Source: Geodermatophilus ruber
GTDB lineage: Bacteria; Actinomycetota; Actinomycetes; Mycobacteriales; Geodermatophilaceae
Reading direction: 5' to 3'
DNA: 64,000 nucleotides
NCBI RefSeq assembly: GCF_900114385.1
Contig: NZ_FOSW01000004.1
Coordinates: 248,001 to 312,000 of the forward strand
The translations under genes were made by a program, and so were the position numbers. Under the pieces are notes generated by a model, which was not told where the DNA came from, did not search any database, and worked only from the letters and a program-made list of their open reading frames with translations. Of this stretch, positions 45,812 through 55,895 are shown in pieces (the first letter of the stretch is position 1; every line of letters starts with the position of its first letter).

Positions 45812-47869
45812 TCAGAAGTCGCCGCCGCCGAAGTCCCCGCCGAAGTCGCCACCTCCGAAGTCGCCACCCCCGAAGTCACCGGCGCTCCAGTCGCCGCCGC
45901 CGTCGTCGCCGCCGCCGAAGAGCAGGCCACCGAGCACCAGCCCGCCGAGACCGGCGCCGAGGGGACTGATGCCGCGCCGGCCGTACCCCGGCCCGCCGTA
46001 CCCGGGGCCGCCCTGCCCCCAGCCGCCGCCGTAGCCGCCGTACCCCCCGTAGCTGTTCTGCTGGGACCACCGCTCGACGTCGGACCCGGCGACGTGCAGC
46101 GCCTGCTGCGCCAGCCGGTCGGCGGTCTGGGCCTCGCGCAGGGCACCCGCCGGGTCCCGCTCCGCGTGCGCCTCGGCGGCGGCCAGGTGCCGCTGGGCCT
46201 CGGCCAGCCGGGTCCGGGCGGTGGCACCGACCGCGCCGCGGCGGGTGCCGATGAAGTCCTCGGCGGCCGCCACCGCCGACCGGGCCGTGAGCAGGGCCTG
46301 CTCGAGAGCCTCCGCGGCGCGGCGGGCCCGGGTCTGCTCGTCGCGGACGTTGCGCAGCGCCTGCTCCAGCGCCAGATCTGCCTCCTCGAGGCGGCGCAGG
46401 GCCGCGAGCGGGTCCCCGCCGCTGCCGTCGGCCGGCCGCAGCGCGTCGGCCGACGCGCTCAGCGCCGCCTCGGCCCGGGCGATCTGCGGGCGCAGGGTCC
46501 CCTGGCGGTCCGCGGAGAGGAGGGCGCGGGCCTCGGCGAGGTCGCCCTCCACGTCGGCCCGGACACCGGGCACCCGCTGCTCCGCCTCGGCGAGGTCGCG
46601 GGCGAGCCGGTCGATCGCGTCGAGGAGCGTGCCGCTCTGCGCGACGGCGCTCTCGGCGCCGCGCAGCCGGCCGACCGCGCGGCCGCTGCGGTCGGCCGCC
46701 TGGTCCTCCCGAGCCAGCGCCACCGCCTGCTCGGCGGCGTCCAGCCGCACCCCGGCCTCCCCCACGTTCTCCAGCACGGGCGCCACGGCCGAGGACGCGT
46801 ACCGGCGCTGCAGGTCCGCGACCCGCTCCTGCTCGCGCGGCAGCCGCTGCTGCAGCTGCCCGACCCGCGCGCCCAGCTCCTCCACCGCCTGCGGGACGGT
46901 CCGCTCCTGCTCCCGCAGCCGATCCAGCGCGCCGGCCTGTTCCTGCAGGCGCCGGCCGGCCGCGTCGGTCAGCGCGAGCAGCTCGGTGAGCATCCGGCGC
47001 TGCGTGGGCTCGTCCTCGGGGATCTCGTCGTCGAGCTCCTGCCGGAGGGTGAACGCCCGCGCCAGCTCGGAGCGGGTCCGGTCCATCCCCTCCACCAGGC
47101 CGGGCACCGCCTCGTCCCCGTAGTGCGCGCGGGCGTAGTCGAGGCCCACCTGCCCGGTCCGGACCCGCTCGTCGAGGTCGAGCAGGGCGGCGCTCGCCCG
47201 GTAGTTGAGCTGCTCGGTCGGCGTCCCGGCGTGCGGGTCCGGCGCCTCCAGCCGCCGCACCGGCGGGGGCAGCTCCGCCCGGCGGCGCCGGCGGGAGCGC
47301 AGCGTCAGGTAGGCGCCGCCGGCGAGGAGGAACATCCCCACCACGACCAGCGCAGTGACCGCGCCCGATCCGCCCCCGGACGTGCTCGGGGCCGCCGTCC
47401 CCGCCGCGCCGGCGGCGGTCTCGGTCGAGCCGAGGCCCTCGGCCAGGCTGATCACCGCGCCCGCCCAGTCGCCCTGGGACAGCCGCGGCTCGACGTCGCC
47501 GGCCAGCACCGCCTGCAGCTGGCCGGGGTCGATCCGCTCGCCGTAGTGGACGCCGTAGCGCCGGTCCTCCACCGCGACCGCGAACAGCACGTCGTCGGCA
47601 CCGAGCCCGGACTGCTCCGCGGTGGCGTTGGCCCACTGCGCCCGGTCCATGCCGTCGAAGGTGGCGACGAAGACGGCGTAGAGGCCGATGCCGGTCTGCG
47701 CGCGCAGCTCCTCCACCGCCTGCTGCACCTCCTCCTCGCGGCCGGCCAGCGCGCCCACCCGGTCGGTGACCTGGCCGGTGACGCCCGACGGCGGCTCGGC
47801 CAGGGCGGGGGTGCCGCCGGCGAGGAGGAACACGACCAGCAGGCCCAGGGCGATCGTCAGCCGACGCAC
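45812..47869 (-). CDS. TPM domain-containing membrane protein, acidic tail
   Basis: A 685-residue protein. Signal peptide (1-25, ending ALA), TPM domain (about 30-150, with DDVLFAVAVEDRRYG), a membrane helix near 178-197 with basic anchor SRRRRR, then about 380 residues of Ala/Glu/Arg-rich coiled coil. The last 45 residues are Gly-rich with eight Asp and no Lys or Arg (repeated GGGDF). TPM domains are linked to photosystem II repair in plants and to membrane-bound phosphatase-like roles in bacteria; function here is unknown. Tandem paralogue of the gene upstream. Confidence 0.88.
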   Translation of the reverse strand: MRRLTIALGLLVVFLLAGGTPALAEPPSGVTGQVTDRVGALAGREEEVQQAVEELRAQTGIGLYAVFVATFDGMDRAQWANATAEQSGLGADDVLFAVAVEDRRYGVHYGERIDPGQLQAVLAGDVEPRLSQGDWAGAVISLAEGLGSTETAAGAAGTAAPSTSGGGSGAVTALVVVGMFLLAGGAYLTLRSRRRRRAELPPPVRRLEAPDPHAGTPTEQLNYRASAALLDLDERVRTGQVGLDYARAHYGDEAVPGLVEGMDRTRSELARAFTLRQELDDEIPEDEPTQRRMLTELLALTDAAGRRLQEQAGALDRLREQERTVPQAVEELGARVGQLQQRLPREQERVADLQRRYASSAVAPVLENVGEAGVRLDAAEQAVALAREDQAADRSGRAVGRLRGAESAVAQSGTLLDAIDRLARDLAEAEQRVPGVRADVEGDLAEARALLSADRQGTLRPQIARAEAALSASADALRPADGSGGDPLAALRRLEEADLALEQALRNVRDEQTRARRAAEALEQALLTARSAVAAAEDFIGTRRGAVGATARTRLAEAQRHLAAAEAHAERDPAGALREAQTADRLAQQALHVAGSDVERWSQQNSYGGYGGYGGGWGQGGPGYGGPGYGRRGISPLGAGLGGLVLGGLLFGGGDDGGGDWSAGDFGGGDFGGGDFGGDFGGGDF

Positions 47870-47981
47870 GGGAGGAACCTCCGTCGAACAGGGGCCGGCC
47901 CTCGGGGCGGCCCGGACTCTGGGCACGCGCGGCGGGCGCCGGGAGTTCCCCACCGCGGCTGCGGGCGGCCGCGGCGAGCGC

Positions 47982-49967
47982 TCAGAAGCGCCCGCCGCCG
48001 CCTCGCCGTCCACCTCCGGAGCTCCGGCCCCCGCCGGAGCGGCGGCCGCCTCCGCCGAACCCGCCACTGCGGTACCCACCGCGTGCCCCGCTGCCACCGC
48101 CCCCGCCGAACAGGATGCCGCCGAGCACGAGGCTGCCCAGGTCGACGCCGCTCCGGCCGGCCGAGCCGCCGGCGAAGCCGCCCGGTCCCGCGAACGGCCC
48201 GCCGGAGCCCCACGCGCCGACGTCGGCCCGGGCCGCGTCCAGCGCCTGCCGGGCCAGCGCGTCGGCCTGCTGGGCCTCCCGCAGCGCGCCGACCGGGTCG
48301 CCCGGCCCCTGGGCGACGGCGGCGTCGAGGCGCCGCTGGGCCTCGGCCAGCCGGGTGCGCGCCTCCGGCCCGACGGCCCCCCGCCGGGTGCTGATGAAGT
48401 CGCCGGCCGCAGCGACCGAGGAACGCGCGGCGGGCAGGGCCTGGTCGAGGGAGGCCGCCGCCCGCCGCGCCCGGTCCTGGGCGTCGCGGGCCGCGCGCAG
48501 GGCCTCCTCCAGCGCGACGTCGGCCTCCTCCAGCCCGCGCAGGGCCGCCAGCGGGTCGGGCCGGCCACCGTCCGGAGGGGTCAGGGCGGCGTCGGCGGTG
48601 GCCAGCGCCGCCTCCGCGCGGGCCACCTGCGACCCCAGGCCGCTGCGGTCGCCGCTGCCGAGCAGCGCGCGGGCCTCGGCGAGGTCCTTCTCGGTCTCCG
48701 CCCGGGCCGCCGCCACCCGGCCGGCCGCGGCCTCCAGGTCGGCGCCCAGCCGGCCGACGGCGTCGAGCAGGGTGGCGCTCTGGGCGACGGCGTCCTCGGC
48801 CGCCCGCACGTCGGTGACCGCCGCCCCCGGCTGTCCCGCGGCCAGGTCGGCGCGAGCCTCGGCGATCTCCTGCTCGGCGGCGGCCAGGCGGGCCCGCGCC
48901 TCGGCCACGTTGTCCGCGACCGGCGCAAGGGCGGCCTCGGCGTAGCGCTCCCCCAGCCCCCGCAGCCGCTGCTCCTCGGCGGGCAGTCGGTCGCGCAGCT
49001 GCGCGATCCGCGGCGCGAGGGCGTCGAGGACCTGCGGGGCGGTGCGCTCCAGGTCCCGCAGCCGCGCGAACTCCTCCGCCTGCGCGTCGAGGCGGGCGTC
49101 GGCGGAGCCGGTCAGCGCGAGGATCTCCGCGAGCATGCGCCGGCGCGCCGGCTCGTCCTCGGGAACCTCGTCGTCGAGCTGCTGGCGCAGCGCGAAGGCG
49201 CGGGCGAGCTCCGCCCGCGCCTGCGCCAGGGCCTCGGCGAAGCCGGCGACGGCCTCCTCGCCGTACTGGAGGCGGGCGAAGTCGAGGTCGAGCGCCGAGC
49301 TCTGCACCGCCTCGTCGAGATCGAGCAGCGCGGTGCTCGCCTGCCCCTGCAGCTGCTCGGTCGGCGTCCCGGCGTGCGGGTCGGGCGGGCCCTGCGGCGT
49401 CGCCCGCTGCCCCCGCCGGCGGCGCGACCGGGTGACCAGGTACGCCCCGCCGCCGACGACGGCCAGCCCGCCGGCGACGAGCAGGGCGGTGGTCCCCGCA
49501 CCGCTGCCCCCGGAATCACCCAGCCCGTCGGCGAGCGCGACGGCGGCGCCGGCCCAGTCGTCGTCGCTGAGCTCCGGCTCGACGTCCCTGGCGATGAGCT
49601 CGTCGAGCTCGGCGGCGGAGAGGGGGAACGCCTCGTCGGCCGAGTAGCCGTAGCGTCGGTCCTCGACGGCCACCGCGAACAGGACGTCGTTGCCGCCCAG
49701 ACCGGACCGCGCGGCGGTCTCGTCGGCCCAGTCGACGCCGGAGGAGCCGTCGAAGCTGTCGACGTAGACCACGAACAGCTGCAGGTCCTCCTCCGACCGC
49801 AGCCGGTCGACCGCGTCCTCCACCCGGGCGACGTCATCGTCCCCGAGCACTCCGGCACGATCGGTCACCTGTTCCGGCACGCTGAACGGCGGCTCGGCCA
49901 GCGCGGGGACGCCGCCGAGGAGGATTCCGGCGGCCAGCAGGGGAAGAACGACGCACAGCCGGCGCAC
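47982..49967 (-). CDS. TPM domain-containing membrane protein, basic tail
   Basis: A 661-residue paralogue of the preceding protein with the same plan: signal peptide, TPM domain with NDVLFAVAVEDRRYG, membrane helix near 163-182 followed by SRRRRG, the shared DPHAGTPTEQL, and a long coiled coil. The Gly-rich C-terminus carries eight Arg and no Asp or Glu (GGRRSGGGRSSGGGRRGGGGRF pattern, in part), the opposite charge of its neighbour. GTG start with GGAGGT ahead. It is upstream and 112 bases from the acidic-tail gene, likely co-transcribed. Confidence 0.88.
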   Translation of the reverse strand: MRRLCVVLPLLAAGILLGGVPALAEPPFSVPEQVTDRAGVLGDDDVARVEDAVDRLRSEEDLQLFVVYVDSFDGSSGVDWADETAARSGLGGNDVLFAVAVEDRRYGYSADEAFPLSAAELDELIARDVEPELSDDDWAGAAVALADGLGDSGGSGAGTTALLVAGGLAVVGGGAYLVTRSRRRRGQRATPQGPPDPHAGTPTEQLQGQASTALLDLDEAVQSSALDLDFARLQYGEEAVAGFAEALAQARAELARAFALRQQLDDEVPEDEPARRRMLAEILALTGSADARLDAQAEEFARLRDLERTAPQVLDALAPRIAQLRDRLPAEEQRLRGLGERYAEAALAPVADNVAEARARLAAAEQEIAEARADLAAGQPGAAVTDVRAAEDAVAQSATLLDAVGRLGADLEAAAGRVAAARAETEKDLAEARALLGSGDRSGLGSQVARAEAALATADAALTPPDGGRPDPLAALRGLEEADVALEEALRAARDAQDRARRAAASLDQALPAARSSVAAAGDFISTRRGAVGPEARTRLAEAQRRLDAAVAQGPGDPVGALREAQQADALARQALDAARADVGAWGSGGPFAGPGGFAGGSAGRSGVDLGSLVLGGILFGGGGGSGARGGYRSGGFGGGGRRSGGGRSSGGGRRGGGGRF

Positions 49968-50111: not shown

Positions 50112-51806
50112 TCAGGCCAGCTGCTGCCAGGCGGCGCGGCGGGCGGCCTGCACGTCGGGATCGGGCACGGGCAGCGAGGCCAGCAGCCGCTGGGTGTAGG
50201 GGTGCTGCGGCGCCCCCAGCACCTCCGCGCCGGTGCCCTCCTCGACCAGCCGGCCGCGGTAGAGCACCGCGATCCGGTCGGCGAGCAGGTCGACGACGGC
50301 GAGGTCGTGGCTGATGAACAGGCAGGCGAAACCGAGCTCCCGCTGCAGCTCGGCGAACAGCTCGAGCACCCGGGCCTGCACCGACACGTCGAGGGCCGAG
50401 GTGGGCTCGTCGGCGATGAGCAGCTCCGGGTCCAGCGCCAGGGAGCGGGCGAGGCTGGCCCGCTGGCGCTGCCCGCCGGAGAGCTCGTGCGGGAAGCGGT
50501 CGCCGAAGGAGCGCGGCAGCTGCACCGCCTCCAGGAGCTCGTCCACGCGGGAGCGCGCCGCCCGGGGATCCTCGGCGCGGCCGTTGACCACCAGCGGCTC
50601 GGCGACCGCCTCGGCGATGGTGAGCAGCGGGTTGAAGCTCGACGCGGGGTCCTGGAAGACGAACCCGATCCGCTTGCGCACCGGGCGGAACGCCTTCTCC
50701 CGGACCCCCCGCATCTCGGTGCCCAGCACCGACAGCGACCCGTCGGTGACCCGGGTCAGCCCGGCGATGGCCCGCCCGATCGTGGTCTTGCCGCTGCCGC
50801 TCTCGCCGACCAGCCCCAGCACCTCACCGGGGCGGATGGCGAAGCTCACGCCGTCGACGGCGACGAAGTCCGGACGGCGGAACCGGCCGGGGTAGACGAT
50901 CCGCAGGTCGCGGGCCGCCACCGCGGGAGCGGCGTCGGCCCAGCCGGGAGCGCGGGCTGCGGCTCGCTCCTCGGCGCGGGCCCGGCCCTCGCCCAGCCGC
51001 GGCACCGAGGCCAGCAGCTGCCGGGTGTAGGGCTCCTGCGGCGCGGAGAACAGCGTGCGGACATCGGCCTGCTCCACGATCCGGCCGGAGTACATCACCG
51101 CCACCCGGTCGGCCAGGTCGGCGACGACGCCCATGTTGTGGGTGATCAGCACGATCGCGGCACCGAACTCGTCGCGGCAGCGGCGCAGCAGGTCGAGGAT
51201 CTCGGCCTGCACGGTGACGTCCAGCGCCGTCGTCGGCTCGTCGGCGATGATCACACCGGGGTCGAGCACCAGGGCCTGGGCGATGACGATGCGCTGCTTC
51301 TGCCCGCCGGAGAACTGGTGGGGGTAGTGGTCGATCCGCTCCTCCGGGTCGGGGATCCCCACCCGCCGCAGCACCTCGATCGCCTCGGCCCGCGCCTGCG
51401 CCCGGTTGTACTTCCCGTGCGCGCGCAGCCCCTCGGCGATCTGCCAGCCCACCGGGTAGACCGGGTTGAGCGCGGTCGAGGGCTCCTGGAAGACCATGGC
51501 GGCGTCGCGGCCGCGCAACTCGCCGAGCTGCTTGGCGGACAGCGCGACCACGTCGTGCTGCGCCGAGCCGTCCTTGCTGCGCAGCACGACGGCGCCGCGG
51601 GTGGCCGCGGTCTCCGGCAGCAGGCCCAGGATGCTGCGCGCGGTGACCGTCTTCCCGCTGCCGCTCTCGCCCACGACGGCGAGCACCTCGCCGGCGGCCA
51701 CCGACAGGCTCACGTCCTGGACGGCGGTGATCGTGCCGGCGTCGGTGGCGAAGGACACCGACAGGTTCTCGATGCCGACGACCTCGCCGGCCCGGGTGGT
51801 GGTCAT
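50112..51806 (-). CDS. Peptide ABC transporter, fused double ATPase (DppD-DppF type)
   Basis: A 564-residue protein with two complete ABC ATPase modules. Walker A GESGSGKTV and GESGSGKTT, signatures FSGGQKQR and LSGGQRQR, Walker B VIIADEPTTALD and LLIADEPTSALD. Each module ends with the oligopeptide-transporter extension (EPYTRQLLASVP; HPYTQRLLASLP). It powers import of peptides or nickel/opine-like substrates. The ATG overlaps the permease stop by four bases. Fusion of the two ATPases is common in Actinobacteria. Confidence 0.93.
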   Translation of the reverse strand: MTTTRAGEVVGIENLSVSFATDAGTITAVQDVSLSVAAGEVLAVVGESGSGKTVTARSILGLLPETAATRGAVVLRSKDGSAQHDVVALSAKQLGELRGRDAAMVFQEPSTALNPVYPVGWQIAEGLRAHGKYNRAQARAEAIEVLRRVGIPDPEERIDHYPHQFSGGQKQRIVIAQALVLDPGVIIADEPTTALDVTVQAEILDLLRRCRDEFGAAIVLITHNMGVVADLADRVAVMYSGRIVEQADVRTLFSAPQEPYTRQLLASVPRLGEGRARAEERAAARAPGWADAAPAVAARDLRIVYPGRFRRPDFVAVDGVSFAIRPGEVLGLVGESGSGKTTIGRAIAGLTRVTDGSLSVLGTEMRGVREKAFRPVRKRIGFVFQDPASSFNPLLTIAEAVAEPLVVNGRAEDPRAARSRVDELLEAVQLPRSFGDRFPHELSGGQRQRASLARSLALDPELLIADEPTSALDVSVQARVLELFAELQRELGFACLFISHDLAVVDLLADRIAVLYRGRLVEEGTGAEVLGAPQHPYTQRLLASLPVPDPDVQAARRAAWQQLA

Positions 51807-52855
51807 CGGGGCCTCCCCTCGATCCCGTCCAGTCCGGCCGGCCCCGCGCCCAGCGACCCGCCCGGCACGACCGACGTCTCCGCCGTCTCCCCCGACTCGG
51901 CCGCCCGGCGGCTGCGCAGCCGCGGGTCGGCCAGGTCGTTGAGGCTCTCGCCCACCAGCGTCAGGCCGAGGACCACCAGGACGATCGCGGCGCCGGGGAA
52001 GATCGCCGTCCACCAGATGCCGCTGGTCACGTCCGACAGCGACTTGTTGAGGTCGTAGCCCCACTCGGCGGCGGCGGTCGGCTCGATGCCGAAGCCGAGG
52101 AAGCCCAGCCCGGCGAGGGTGAGGATCGCCTCGGAGGCGTTGAGCGTGAGGATCAGCGGCAGCGTGCGGGTCGCGTTGCGCAGCACGTGCCGGGTCATGA
52201 TCCGCCAGTGCCCGGCGCCGACCACGCGGGCGGACTCGACGAACGCCTCCCCCTTGATCCGCACCGTCTCGGCGCGGACCACGCGGAAGTACTGCGGGAT
52301 GAACACGACGGTGATCGAGATGGCCGCGGCCAGGATGCCGCCGAAGAGGCTGGACTGCCCGCCGCTGATGACGATCGCCATGACGATGGCCAGCAGCAGG
52401 GCCGGGAAGGCGTAGACCGCGTCGCAGACGACCACCAGCACCCGGTCCAGCCAGCCGCCGAAGTAGCCCGAGAGCAGCCCGATCAGCACGCCGGCGAACA
52501 ACGACAGCACGATGGCGACCACGATCACCATGACCGCGGTGCGCGAGCCGTAGATCACGCGGGAGAGCACGTCGTAGCCGCCGACCGTGGTGCCCAGCCA
52601 GTGCTCGGCCGAGGGCGCCTGCTGCGCGCCGAAGGGCCCGTCGGCGTCGCGCAGCTGGTTGTACTCGTAGGGCGCCAGCAGCGGGGCGACCAGCGCGGTG
52701 AGCAGGAACAGGCCGGTGAGCACCAGCCCGGTCACGAGCATGCCGCGCTGCAGGCCCACGCTCTGCCGCAGCTGGTGGACGACGGGCAGCCGGCGCCAGC
52801 CCCGGCGGGCGGGATCGGTGCGCGGGCTCTCCTCGACGGGAGCGACGGTGCTCAT
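51803..52855 (-). CDS. Peptide ABC transporter permease (DppC type)
   Basis: A 350-residue membrane protein with six helices; the DppC-type N-terminal helix after a cytoplasmic leader of about 35 residues, and EAA loop EsARVVGAGHWRIMTRHVL. Residues near 300 onward form a hydrophilic Ser/Glu-rich tail. It pairs with the DppB-type permease, whose stop overlaps its ATG (TGATG). Confidence 0.93.
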   Translation of the reverse strand: MSTVAPVEESPRTDPARRGWRRLPVVHQLRQSVGLQRGMLVTGLVLTGLFLLTALVAPLLAPYEYNQLRDADGPFGAQQAPSAEHWLGTTVGGYDVLSRVIYGSRTAVMVIVVAIVLSLFAGVLIGLLSGYFGGWLDRVLVVVCDAVYAFPALLLAIVMAIVISGGQSSLFGGILAAAISITVVFIPQYFRVVRAETVRIKGEAFVESARVVGAGHWRIMTRHVLRNATRTLPLILTLNASEAILTLAGLGFLGFGIEPTAAAEWGYDLNKSLSDVTSGIWWTAIFPGAAIVLVVLGLTLVGESLNDLADPRLRSRRAAESGETAETSVVPGGSLGAGPAGLDGIEGRPR

Positions 52856-53961
52856 CAGTACCTCACCCGCGGGTCGATCAGCGCGGCGATGACGTCGACG
52901 ACGAAGTTGGTCACCGCGACGATCACCGCCAGCAGCGCGACGATGCCCTGCACGGCGACGAAGTCACGGGCCTGCAGGTACTCGGCCAGCTGGAAGCCCA
53001 GGCCCTTCCACTCGAAGGTCGTCTCGGTCAGGACGGCGCCGCCCATGAGCAGGGCGACCTGCAGGCCGATGACGGTGATGATCGGGATCAGCGCCGGCCG
53101 GTAGGCGTGCTTGCGCAGCAGCCGCCGCTCGGCGACGCCGCGGGAGCGGGCCGCCTCGACGTAGCCCATGCCCAGGGTGCCGATGACGTTGGTGCGCACC
53201 AGGCGCAGGAACACCCCGGCGGTGAGCAGCCCGAGCGCCAGCGCGGGCAGCACCGCGTGCTCGAGCACGTCACGGATCACGTCGGGGTCGCCCAGGCGGA
53301 TCGCGTCGATCAGGTAGATGCCGGTCGGGTTCTCGAGGAACTGCAGTTCGATCTCCGTCCCGGTGGAGGCCCGGCCGGCGACCGGCAGCCAGCCCAGCCC
53401 GCTGGCGAAGACCAGCTTGAGCACCAGGCCGGCGAAGAACACCGGCGTCGCGTAGCAGAGGATCGCGAACACCCGGAGCACCGCGTCGGGCCACTTGTCG
53501 CGGCAGTAGGCGGCCAGGCGCCCGAGCGGTATGCCGATGGCGAAGGCGACGATCAGCGCGTAGCACGCCAGCTCGAGGGTCGCCGTCCCGAAGGTGGTGA
53601 GCACCTCGGTGACCGGCCGGCGGTCGGACAGCGTCGTCCCGAAGTCGCCGGTGAAGACGCTGCCGAGGTACTCGAAGTACTGCACCAGCAGCGGCCGGTC
53701 GTACCCGGCCTCCTGCACCCGCTGGGCGAGCTCCGCCGCGGTGAGCCGGCCGCCCAGCGCCGCGGTGATCGGGTCACCGGTGGAGCGCATGAGGAAGAAG
53801 ACCGTCGTCACCAGGATGAATACGGTGGGGATGATCAGCAGGAACCGGACGAGCAGGTAGCCGGCGAGGCCACCACCGCCGCGGCGGCGGCGGACCGCCG
53901 GGGCCCGCTCCTGCTCCTGGTCTGATCCGCTGCCCGCGAGCTCGGTCGCTGCTGTGGTCAT
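52855..53961 (-). CDS. Peptide ABC transporter permease (DppB type)
   Basis: A 368-residue permease with six membrane helices. The N-terminal LLVRFLLIIPTVFILVTTV helix, DRPLLVQYFEYLGSVFTGDFG loop and EAA loop EAARSRGVAERRLLRKHAYR are characteristic of the DppB/OppB family. The ATG at 53961 follows GGAAAGG; a start further upstream is not supported. An arginine-rich leader precedes the first helix. Confidence 0.93.
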   Translation of the reverse strand: MTTAATELAGSGSDQEQERAPAVRRRRGGGGLAGYLLVRFLLIIPTVFILVTTVFFLMRSTGDPITAALGGRLTAAELAQRVQEAGYDRPLLVQYFEYLGSVFTGDFGTTLSDRRPVTEVLTTFGTATLELACYALIVAFAIGIPLGRLAAYCRDKWPDAVLRVFAILCYATPVFFAGLVLKLVFASGLGWLPVAGRASTGTEIELQFLENPTGIYLIDAIRLGDPDVIRDVLEHAVLPALALGLLTAGVFLRLVRTNVIGTLGMGYVEAARSRGVAERRLLRKHAYRPALIPIITVIGLQVALLMGGAVLTETTFEWKGLGFQLAEYLQARDFVAVQGIVALLAVIVAVTNFVVDVIAALIDPRVRY

Positions 53962-54001
53962 CGCCTTTCCTCCGTGCATGCGGCAGAGCCGCACATGGGG
54001 A

Positions 54002-54043
54002 GGCCCCGGGTGGCCCCGCCGAGCGGCGGGGTCACCCGGGGCC
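54002..54043 (-). promoter_or_regulatory. Intercistronic hairpin between binding protein and permease genes
   Basis: A 19-bp stem (54002-54020 with 54025-54043, one G-U pair) and GAGC loop lies 30 bases past the substrate-binding protein stop and 41 bases before the permease start. Such hairpins usually protect the upstream mRNA or terminate partially, giving more binding protein than permease. Confidence 0.75.
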
Positions 54044-54072
54044 GGTGTCGCTACCTTCTCAGGCCGCCGGGG

Positions 54073-55725
54073 TCAGCCCTGGCTCAGGCTCAGGGCGCCG
54101 TAGCGGAACTTGAAGGACGCGTCGAGCGTGTCCGCCGCACCCTCCACGCCGGTCCGGACGACGGCGACCTGAGCGCCCTGCAGGTAGGGCAGCGTGGACA
54201 GGTCCTGGGCGACCTGCTGCTGGATCTGCTCGATCAGCGCCGTCCGCTGCGCCGGGTCCGGGGTGGTGGCCTGCTGCAGGATCAGGTCGTTCACCTGCTG
54301 GTTGGCGTAGTGGTTGGACAGGAAGTTCTCCGTGAGGAAGAACGGCGACAGGTAGTTGTCGGCGTCGGAGTAGTCCGGGAACCAGCCCAGCTGGTAGGCC
54401 GGGTACACGTCGGCGACGCGGTCCTCGGAGTACTGCACCCACTCGGTGGTCTGCAGGTCCACGGTGAACAGGCCGCTGGACTCCAACTGGTCCTTGATCA
54501 GGGCGTACTCGTCACCCGAGGACGGCCCGTAGTGGTCGTTGGAGTACTGCAGGCTCAGCTGCACCGGGGTCTGCACGCCCGCGTCCTGCAGCACCTGGGC
54601 CGCCCGCTCGGCGTCCGGGCCGCCGTTGCCGTCGCCGTACATCTCCCGCAGCGCCTCGGTGGCGCCGGTCAGACCGTCGGCCACGTGGGAGTACAGCGGG
54701 GTGTAGGTGCCCTTGTAGACCTGCTCCGCGAGCTCCTCGCGGTTGATCAGGTGCGCGATCGCCTGGCGGACGGCCGCGGCCTTGGCCGGGTCGGCGTCGG
54801 GCTGCGTGGCACCGAAGGGCTGGGTGTTGAAGTTGAAGACCATGTAGCGGATCTCGCCGCCCGGGCCCTCGACGACCTCGACGTCCTCGTTGCCGCTGAG
54901 GTCCTCGATGTCGGTCGCGCTCAGGCTGCGGAAGGCGACGTCGATGTTGCCCTGCTCGATGTCCAGCTTGAGGTTCGAGGAGTCGGCGTAGTACTTGACG
55001 TTGACCTGCTCGGTGGCCGGAGCGCCCAGCAGCCCCTGGTAGTCGGGGTAGGCCTCGTAGGAGATCAGGTTGTTCTGGTCGTAGTTGGTGATCGTGTACG
55101 GGCCGTGGAAGGCGTTGCCGTCGACGATCTCCTGGTCCGGGGTGAGCTCGGTGGCCGAGAAGACGTCCTCGTCCACGATCGGGCCGGCCGGGCTGGACAG
55201 GATCTGCGGGAACGTCTGGTCGTTCTCCGACTTGAGGTTGAAGACGACGGTGGTGTCGTCGACGACCTCGGTGCTCTCCAGGTTGGCCAGGAGGGCGGCC
55301 GGACCGTTCGGGTCGTTGATGGCGACCATCCGGTCGAAGGTGAACTTGACGTCCGAGGCGGTCAGGTCGTTGCCGTTGGCCCACTTCAGGCCCGGCTTCA
55401 GGGTGACCGTGTACTGCGTCGGCGCGGTGAACTCGGCCGATTCGGCGATGTCGGGCTCGACGTCGGGGCTTCCGTAGTTGGTGTTCATCAGGAAGGGGAA
55501 GACCTGGTTCATGACGGCGAAGGAGCCGTTGTCGTACGAACCCGCGGGGTCGATCGTGGTGATCTTGTCGCTGGTGCCGATCGTCAGCGTGCCGCCGCCG
55601 CTGCCCCCACCGGAGCCGCTGCCGCCGTCGTCGCTGCCCCCGCACGCCGCGAGCGTCAGCGCGGTCACCGCGAGGCCTGCGGTGGCGACGCGCACACGCC
55701 GACCACGGATCGAAACGGAACTCAT
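54073..55725 (-). CDS. Peptide ABC transporter substrate-binding lipoprotein (SBP family 5)
   Basis: A 550-residue exported lipoprotein with signal peptide and lipobox LAAC near residue 28, then a Gly/Ser linker. LTIGTSDKITTIDPAGSYDN and KWANGNDLTASDVKFTFDRM are family 5 (OppA/DppA) hallmarks. It captures the ligand outside the membrane. The first gene of the operon; its ligand is not predictable. Confidence 0.93.
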   Translation of the reverse strand: MSSVSIRGRRVRVATAGLAVTALTLAACGGSDDGGSGSGGGSGGGTLTIGTSDKITTIDPAGSYDNGSFAVMNQVFPFLMNTNYGSPDVEPDIAESAEFTAPTQYTVTLKPGLKWANGNDLTASDVKFTFDRMVAINDPNGPAALLANLESTEVVDDTTVVFNLKSENDQTFPQILSSPAGPIVDEDVFSATELTPDQEIVDGNAFHGPYTITNYDQNNLISYEAYPDYQGLLGAPATEQVNVKYYADSSNLKLDIEQGNIDVAFRSLSATDIEDLSGNEDVEVVEGPGGEIRYMVFNFNTQPFGATQPDADPAKAAAVRQAIAHLINREELAEQVYKGTYTPLYSHVADGLTGATEALREMYGDGNGGPDAERAAQVLQDAGVQTPVQLSLQYSNDHYGPSSGDEYALIKDQLESSGLFTVDLQTTEWVQYSEDRVADVYPAYQLGWFPDYSDADNYLSPFFLTENFLSNHYANQQVNDLILQQATTPDPAQRTALIEQIQQQVAQDLSTLPYLQGAQVAVVRTGVEGAADTLDASFKFRYGALSLSQG

Positions 55726-55895
55726 CCGCCTACCTTCGTTCTTCCTGGGCACCGCCCGCGGACCCTGAGGATTTCCTGCCGCGGACGGGTATGGCCGTTG
55801 GTTACCCATGCGTAGCACAGGCGCGGTCCAGCGCCGAAACCGCCGGAACGACCGTTATCCGCTCGTGACCGATCGGGCCACGACTACCACGACGC

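Follow-up and report, generated by a model that had tools for sequence, protein, structure and literature searches.

The DNA analysed here, called the window below, is a 64,000-nt stretch of the Geodermatophilus ruber genome (assembly GCF_900114385.1, 4.99 Mb in 32 contigs; contig NZ_FOSW01000004.1, positions 248,001 to 312,000). It contains two adjacent genes, A upstream and B downstream, both on the minus strand, that encode TPM-domain membrane proteins with glycine-rich C-terminal tails of opposite charge (Table 1). The space between them is short enough that A and B are probably carried on one transcript. A preliminary description, made from the nucleotide sequence, had presented the two as adjacent paralogues of common architecture with a DPHAGTPTEQL segment in each, and this account holds in full: both open reading frames (ORFs) lie where it placed them, the segment is common to both, and the products are 55% identical across 605 aligned columns.

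Table 1. Features of the tandem TPM locus, in window positions.
Feature	Position	Strand	Details
Gene A, basic-tail form	49967..47982	-	661 aa; tail end ..GGGGRF
Gene B, acidic-tail form	47869..45812	-	685 aa; GTG start; tail end ..GGGDF
A–B intergenic gap	47870..47981	-	112 nt
DNA coding last 45 residues of A	47985..48119	-	8 Arg, acidic 0
DNA coding last 45 residues of B	45815..45949	-	8 Asp, basic 0
Common layout of A and B			signal peptide, TPM domain, membrane helix + Arg run, long coiled region, Gly-rich tail
Upstream genes, putative oligopeptide-type ABC transporter (ATPase, permeases, binding protein)	50112..55818	-	named from translations

Both proteins match the Pfam TPM family PF04536 above its curated cut-off of 22.1 bits (A, 5.7e-20 and 72 bits; B, 1e-15 and 58.3 bits). 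Many TPM-domain proteins carry a signal peptide ahead of the domain and a membrane helix behind it, and hydropathy predicts the same arrangement here, with peaks at residues 4–22 and 160–178 of A and at residues 6–24 and 170–188 of B. A basic run directly follows the second peak in each protein (RRRR in A). Each is, in addition, a single chain of about 650–700 residues laid out like the long TPM proteins of Actinobacteria, the presumed kind of Rv2345 and Cg2496, with near full-length profile matches in the order.

The two tails had been described as sharply split in charge, and the split is exact: the last 45 residues of A contain 8 Arg, no Asp or Glu, and 25 Gly, whereas those of B contain 8 Asp, no Lys or Arg, and 22 Gly. 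The DNA encoding the B tail is a decayed 15-nt tandem repeat (45815–45920, 7.3 copies, 75% match), and the eight Asp residues therefore do not represent eight independent events. Such a repeat would also be in keeping with neutral low-complexity drift, in which slippage resizes the tails, their sign follows whichever unit has expanded, and the two genes form a pair without shared function. The wide variation in charged residues per tail across the Geodermatophilaceae (1–13 in basic tails, 2–10 in acidic ones) points in the same direction. Drift accounts less readily for the strictness of the sign: basic residues are absent from all 34 readable acidic tails of the family and acidic residues from 69 of its 71 readable basic tails, the other two having one each, so that 103 of 105 tails are strictly one-signed, which exceeds chance. 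These counts omit 14 ORFs, 11 of which run off a contig. In the remaining three long TPM genes (L056 in G005, L113 in G034, and L137 in G083), an early stop or an unrelated-looking or unreadable end takes the place of the tail.

The last residue of the tail also speaks against drift. A C-terminal Phe is found in 119 of 121 complete proteins, basic- and acidic-tailed alike; the other two, L056 and L137, are cut short or have an unrelated-looking end. Because this end is shared by tails of either charge, it suggests one common contact.

The gene is present in 26 of 26 genomes in a genus-level search and, at E<=1e-50, in 103 of 112 Geodermatophilaceae genomes in a family search with as many as 10 candidates scored in each. 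Tails were read at the loci of every one of these 103 genomes, the window representing its own. Fifty-nine genomes have the basic form only (among them G020, in which a gene split across two contigs was counted as one), 21 have the acidic form only, and 12 have an adjacent pair; a further genome (G083) has an acidic gene and a second gene with an unreadable tail on a separate contig, and the tails of 10 genomes were unreadable. The expectation that neither gene would commonly occur alone is contradicted by these numbers, and the 59 basic-only and 21 acidic-only genomes led us to reject an obligate pair. Where both forms are adjacent, the arrangement is constant: in 12 of 12 pairs the acidic gene lies downstream of the basic one, with gaps of 17–144 nt (in the G080 pair the contig end truncates the basic gene, whose tail is still present). 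Geodermatophilus sabuli and Blastococcus haudaquaticus are among the relatives that have the pair. The pairs are distributed over genus groups g1 (two), g3, g4, and g10 (one each), and g8 (seven). The upstream paired genes of the g8 loci L128–L134 have basic tails rich in Arg and Ser instead of Gly and Arg, reminiscent of SR domains.

Complementary charge in the pairs of relatives had likewise been anticipated, and a basic-then-acidic order in all 12 adjacent family pairs bears this out; the one adjacent pair read outside the family, in Microbacterium stercoris, is basic–basic. The picture of complementary duplicates survives for the sign of the charge and fails for its amount. Four pairs, those of g1, g3, and g10, have 6–8 acidic residues in the acidic tail; the eight of g4 and g8 have only 3–5, against 8–13 basic residues in the partner. 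Complementarity in pairs is thus one of sign, not of amount.

These data bear directly on the proposal of an electrostatic heteromer, in which the basic and acidic tails would bind each other and the proteins would assemble into mixed A–B filaments or a membrane condensate. Opposite signs in 12 of 12 adjacent pairs, on the same strand and with short gaps, are in line with it. So is the basicity of paired tails at the tip level, which exceeds that of single ones as pairing predicts (8–13 Lys/Arg, n = 12, versus 1–9, n = 59; p 1e-7); just two phylogenetically independent comparisons underlie this difference, a number at which significance is unreachable, and greater basicity of paired tails is for that reason not established. 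Acidic tails, by comparison, are not more acidic when paired (p 0.84, with 13 counted as paired, including G083), and the amounts of charge are unequal in 8 of the 12 pairs. The proposal is further weakened by the 80 one-form genomes that stand against 12 pairs. No second long match was found in any of the 80 at E<=1e-50 among the 10 or fewer candidates scored per genome, and no partner remnant turned up beside 93 loci with one TPM ORF, covered by 174 flanking pieces of at most 4.5 kb (the units being loci rather than genomes, with pieces of split genes included). A recently lost partner was rejected on the grounds that these flanks lack any TPM remnant. A hidden partner elsewhere in the one-form genomes was rejected as well, given the lack of a second long match and the nature of the short TPM paralogues, which at 15 loci (17 ORFs; 8 of the loci cover 5 of the 21 acidic-only genomes) stop shortly past the membrane helix and have no glycine runs. 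Because of the 80 one-form genomes and the flanks free of partner remnants, the two proteins generally do not need each other, and a heteromer of this kind seems unlikely. The extra short paralogues (L162–L176; TPM plus one helix, no coil) occur in several Geodermatophilaceae, sometimes with two within 5 kb.

In other families of the order, matches that span nearly the full profile have the TPM domain, helix, coil, and Gly-rich tail, and 20 of 20 tails read from these families, mostly Gly-rich, are basic or neutral, with none net acidic. Because tails from other families and from the outgroup are basic or neutral, the acidic tail looks like a change within the Geodermatophilaceae. Duplication alone does not yield opposite signs, since the two adjacent TPM genes of M. 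stercoris (L030:9380-13317), the second very divergent, both have basic tails. No other adjacent long TPM pair was found among the matches listed in a class search of 394 genomes with two candidates scored in each (two touching pieces in different frames in G518 were taken as one gene), and no adjacent second long copy was found among those listed in an order search with three candidates scored per genome; searches of this depth may overlook tandem pairs beyond the family. In f51 genomes the class search also brought up homologues of the coil alone, about 450 aa long, that cover profile positions of about 222–655 and lie far from the TPM gene; these may be real paralogues or reflect mere coil similarity.

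The surroundings of the genes were compared by means of a rough gene caller and clustering, with 28 loci shown. Clusters of the same neighbours, an apparent oligopeptide ABC transporter upstream and VOC- and pirin-like proteins downstream, were seen repeatedly around genes of all three kinds (paired, basic-only, and acidic-only), if not around every one. Given the same neighbours and the lack of partner remnants, the basic and acidic forms resemble alternative occupants of a single locus, with both sometimes kept.

A core tree built without the tail (125 rows) places the acidic forms in two groups, one with the B protein of the window, g1, g3, g10, and a few g9 genomes, the other with g4, g8, and most g9 genomes. 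Two changes of sign suffice on this tree, in a count that labels the unreadable rows L113 and L137 as basic. In a careful tree of 51 rows the acidic forms make a single group in 0 of 200 bootstrap trees, and TPM-only and coil-only trees (49 rows) agree with two groups, their deep forks being unsettled. With the 125-row quick tree, a single acidic clade survives an approximately unbiased (AU) test (p 0.0915), the clade being defined as the 34 acidic rows plus L109 and L123, whose tails are unread. The genome G107 is awkward in that its basic copy groups with the basic copies of g8 and its acidic copy with that of the window; the acidic copies of g8 lie near basic copies. One origin or two of the acidic form would thus both be compatible with the trees. 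Because sign follows inheritance in large clades, the 12 pairs amount to far fewer than 12 independent events. On this evidence, opposite charge is a repeated property of pairs that nevertheless traces to few inherited events, in a pair that is not obligate. Inheritance of this kind has consequences for neutral drift in both directions: the fixed gene order may reflect a few inherited duplications, as drift would allow, whereas a sign that needs just two changes on the core tree is more stable than drift would lead one to expect. With the strict one-signedness and the Phe end also unaccounted for, we regard drift as distinctly unlikely.

The tails might differ not only in charge but also in the side of the membrane on which they lie. 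All 34 acidic forms have a hydrophobic, glycine-zipper-like stretch just before the tail, with a hydropathy of 1.26–1.86 in a 19-residue window and a mean charge of about +2 before and −3 after it, the charge after it being negative in 34 of 34. The 59 single basic forms of the family peak at 0.88–1.42, and negative charge follows in none of them. These two contrasts would be explained if the acidic stretch, basic before and Asp-rich after, crossed the membrane and placed its tail outside, with the tail of the basic form inside, and oppositely oriented twins have a precedent in Fluc (PMC3755343). The separation is less clean in a wider sample. The 14 basic forms outside the family overlap the acidic ones (0.71–1.69), and negative charge follows the best window in 5 of the 12 paired basic forms; in four of these (L091, L126, L129, and L132) the best window falls in the coil, and the stretch before the tail is therefore weak or lost. 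The charge after the stretch is not independent evidence, because it is partly the sign of the tail itself. On a membrane-insertion scale, acidic stretches have a median score of 3.3 and basic ones 6.9, both worse than the 1.2–1.7 of the first helix; the acidic stretch is nearer to a membrane segment than the basic one and is not convincing as a membrane helix. Acidic residues, moreover, steer membrane topology weakly. Opposite topologies for the two forms are accordingly improbable. Were the two tails to lie on opposite sides, the acidic one outside and the basic one inside, as might be the case from these profiles, direct pairing of the tails, which needs both on the same side, would be ruled out.

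We favour, at roughly 45% and hence tentatively, a reading in which A and B arose by tandem duplication of the long TPM membrane protein of Actinobacteria, one copy having the basic tail usual in the order and the downstream copy an acidic one, and act as charge-selecting adaptors. In its favour are the matches to TPM and to the solved chain 2kpt, the one-form genomes with their recurring neighbours, the constant order and opposite sign of the pairs, the one-signed tails with their terminal Phe, the basic or neutral tails elsewhere in the order, and the higher charge of paired basic tails. The protein would be anchored in the membrane with its TPM domain outside and its coiled rod inside, and the flexible tail would select a partner by charge, the conserved Phe providing a second contact. 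Because like-charged tails repel, each form would tend toward assemblies of its own kind. In two-form genomes A and B would bind different partners, with direct contact between the two also possible, and a lineage could keep either form because both would share one ancestral job. An obligate heteromer is not needed by such an adaptor; A–B pairing is possible, and what is left of the electrostatic pair is an optional contact, confined to the 12 or possibly 13 two-form genomes. A more general statement, that duplication left a fixed-order pair of opposite sign because sign sets the partner bound or the membrane side of the Phe-ended tail, with lineages keeping one or both, is doubtful. Three points weigh against the adaptor reading. 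The excess basicity of paired tails has the two independent comparisons behind it that were noted above. The coil and the TPM domain are predicted to lie inside and outside, respectively, from hydropathy and from the basic run that follows the helix. PspA (PF04012), finally, has a single match in the source genome, on contig C19, the window being on C15; with pspA neither adjacent nor on the same contig, a PspA operon was rejected for this genome.

Many Actinobacteria encode long TPM proteins. The basic-only, acidic-only, and paired genomes of the soil bacteria compared here form a natural set in which the role of tail charge is open to comparison and gene removal, the near-invariant terminal Phe offering a concrete residue for testing. 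If the acidic form arose twice, the locus would be a case of convergent charge inversion of a disordered tail.

No description of an oppositely charged tandem TPM pair was found among the papers listed by searches of an open-access library that lacks most subscription papers, and the literature passages at hand gave no established function for long TPM proteins. The solved TPM chain 2kpt (a putative secreted protein) matches A at 2.5e-20. We take 2kpt to be Cg2496, and on the strength of this match, Rv2345 and Cg2496 are presumably long TPM proteins of the same kind as A and B. Homologues of this type in the order share the TPM domain, helix, coil, and Gly-rich tail and align over nearly the full profile; in other families their tails are basic or neutral, unlike the acidic tail of B. 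One review lists Rv2345 and Cg2496 as possible, not validated, orthologues of ZipA (PMC3989709), and a 671-aa TPM protein appears among the surface proteins of Mycobacterium abscessus (PMC11925935). For Bacillus subtilis, PMC8581546 describes YdjH, a TPM protein of the pspA-ydjGHI operon, as likely to anchor PspA and YdjI at the membrane, and the cloning primers printed there indicate C termini of SRGSF for YdjH and MGGGF for YdjG; a passage of PMC11237479 proposes TPM as a chaperone-like partner of PspA. YdjH, compared here by description, is thus Phe-ended like A and B, and differs in that pspA lies on another contig in G. ruber. The closest parallel in gene arrangement is with the Fluc twins, which, according to the section of PMC3755343 that deals with them, are singletons in some genomes and tandem homologues of converse charge bias in others, much as A and B are single in some genomes and in tandem with opposite charge elsewhere. 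In Fluc, a small channel, termini and loops carry the charges, which orient the whole protein in opposite ways, whereas A and B differ at the C-terminal end alone and should agree in the orientation of their N-terminal half.

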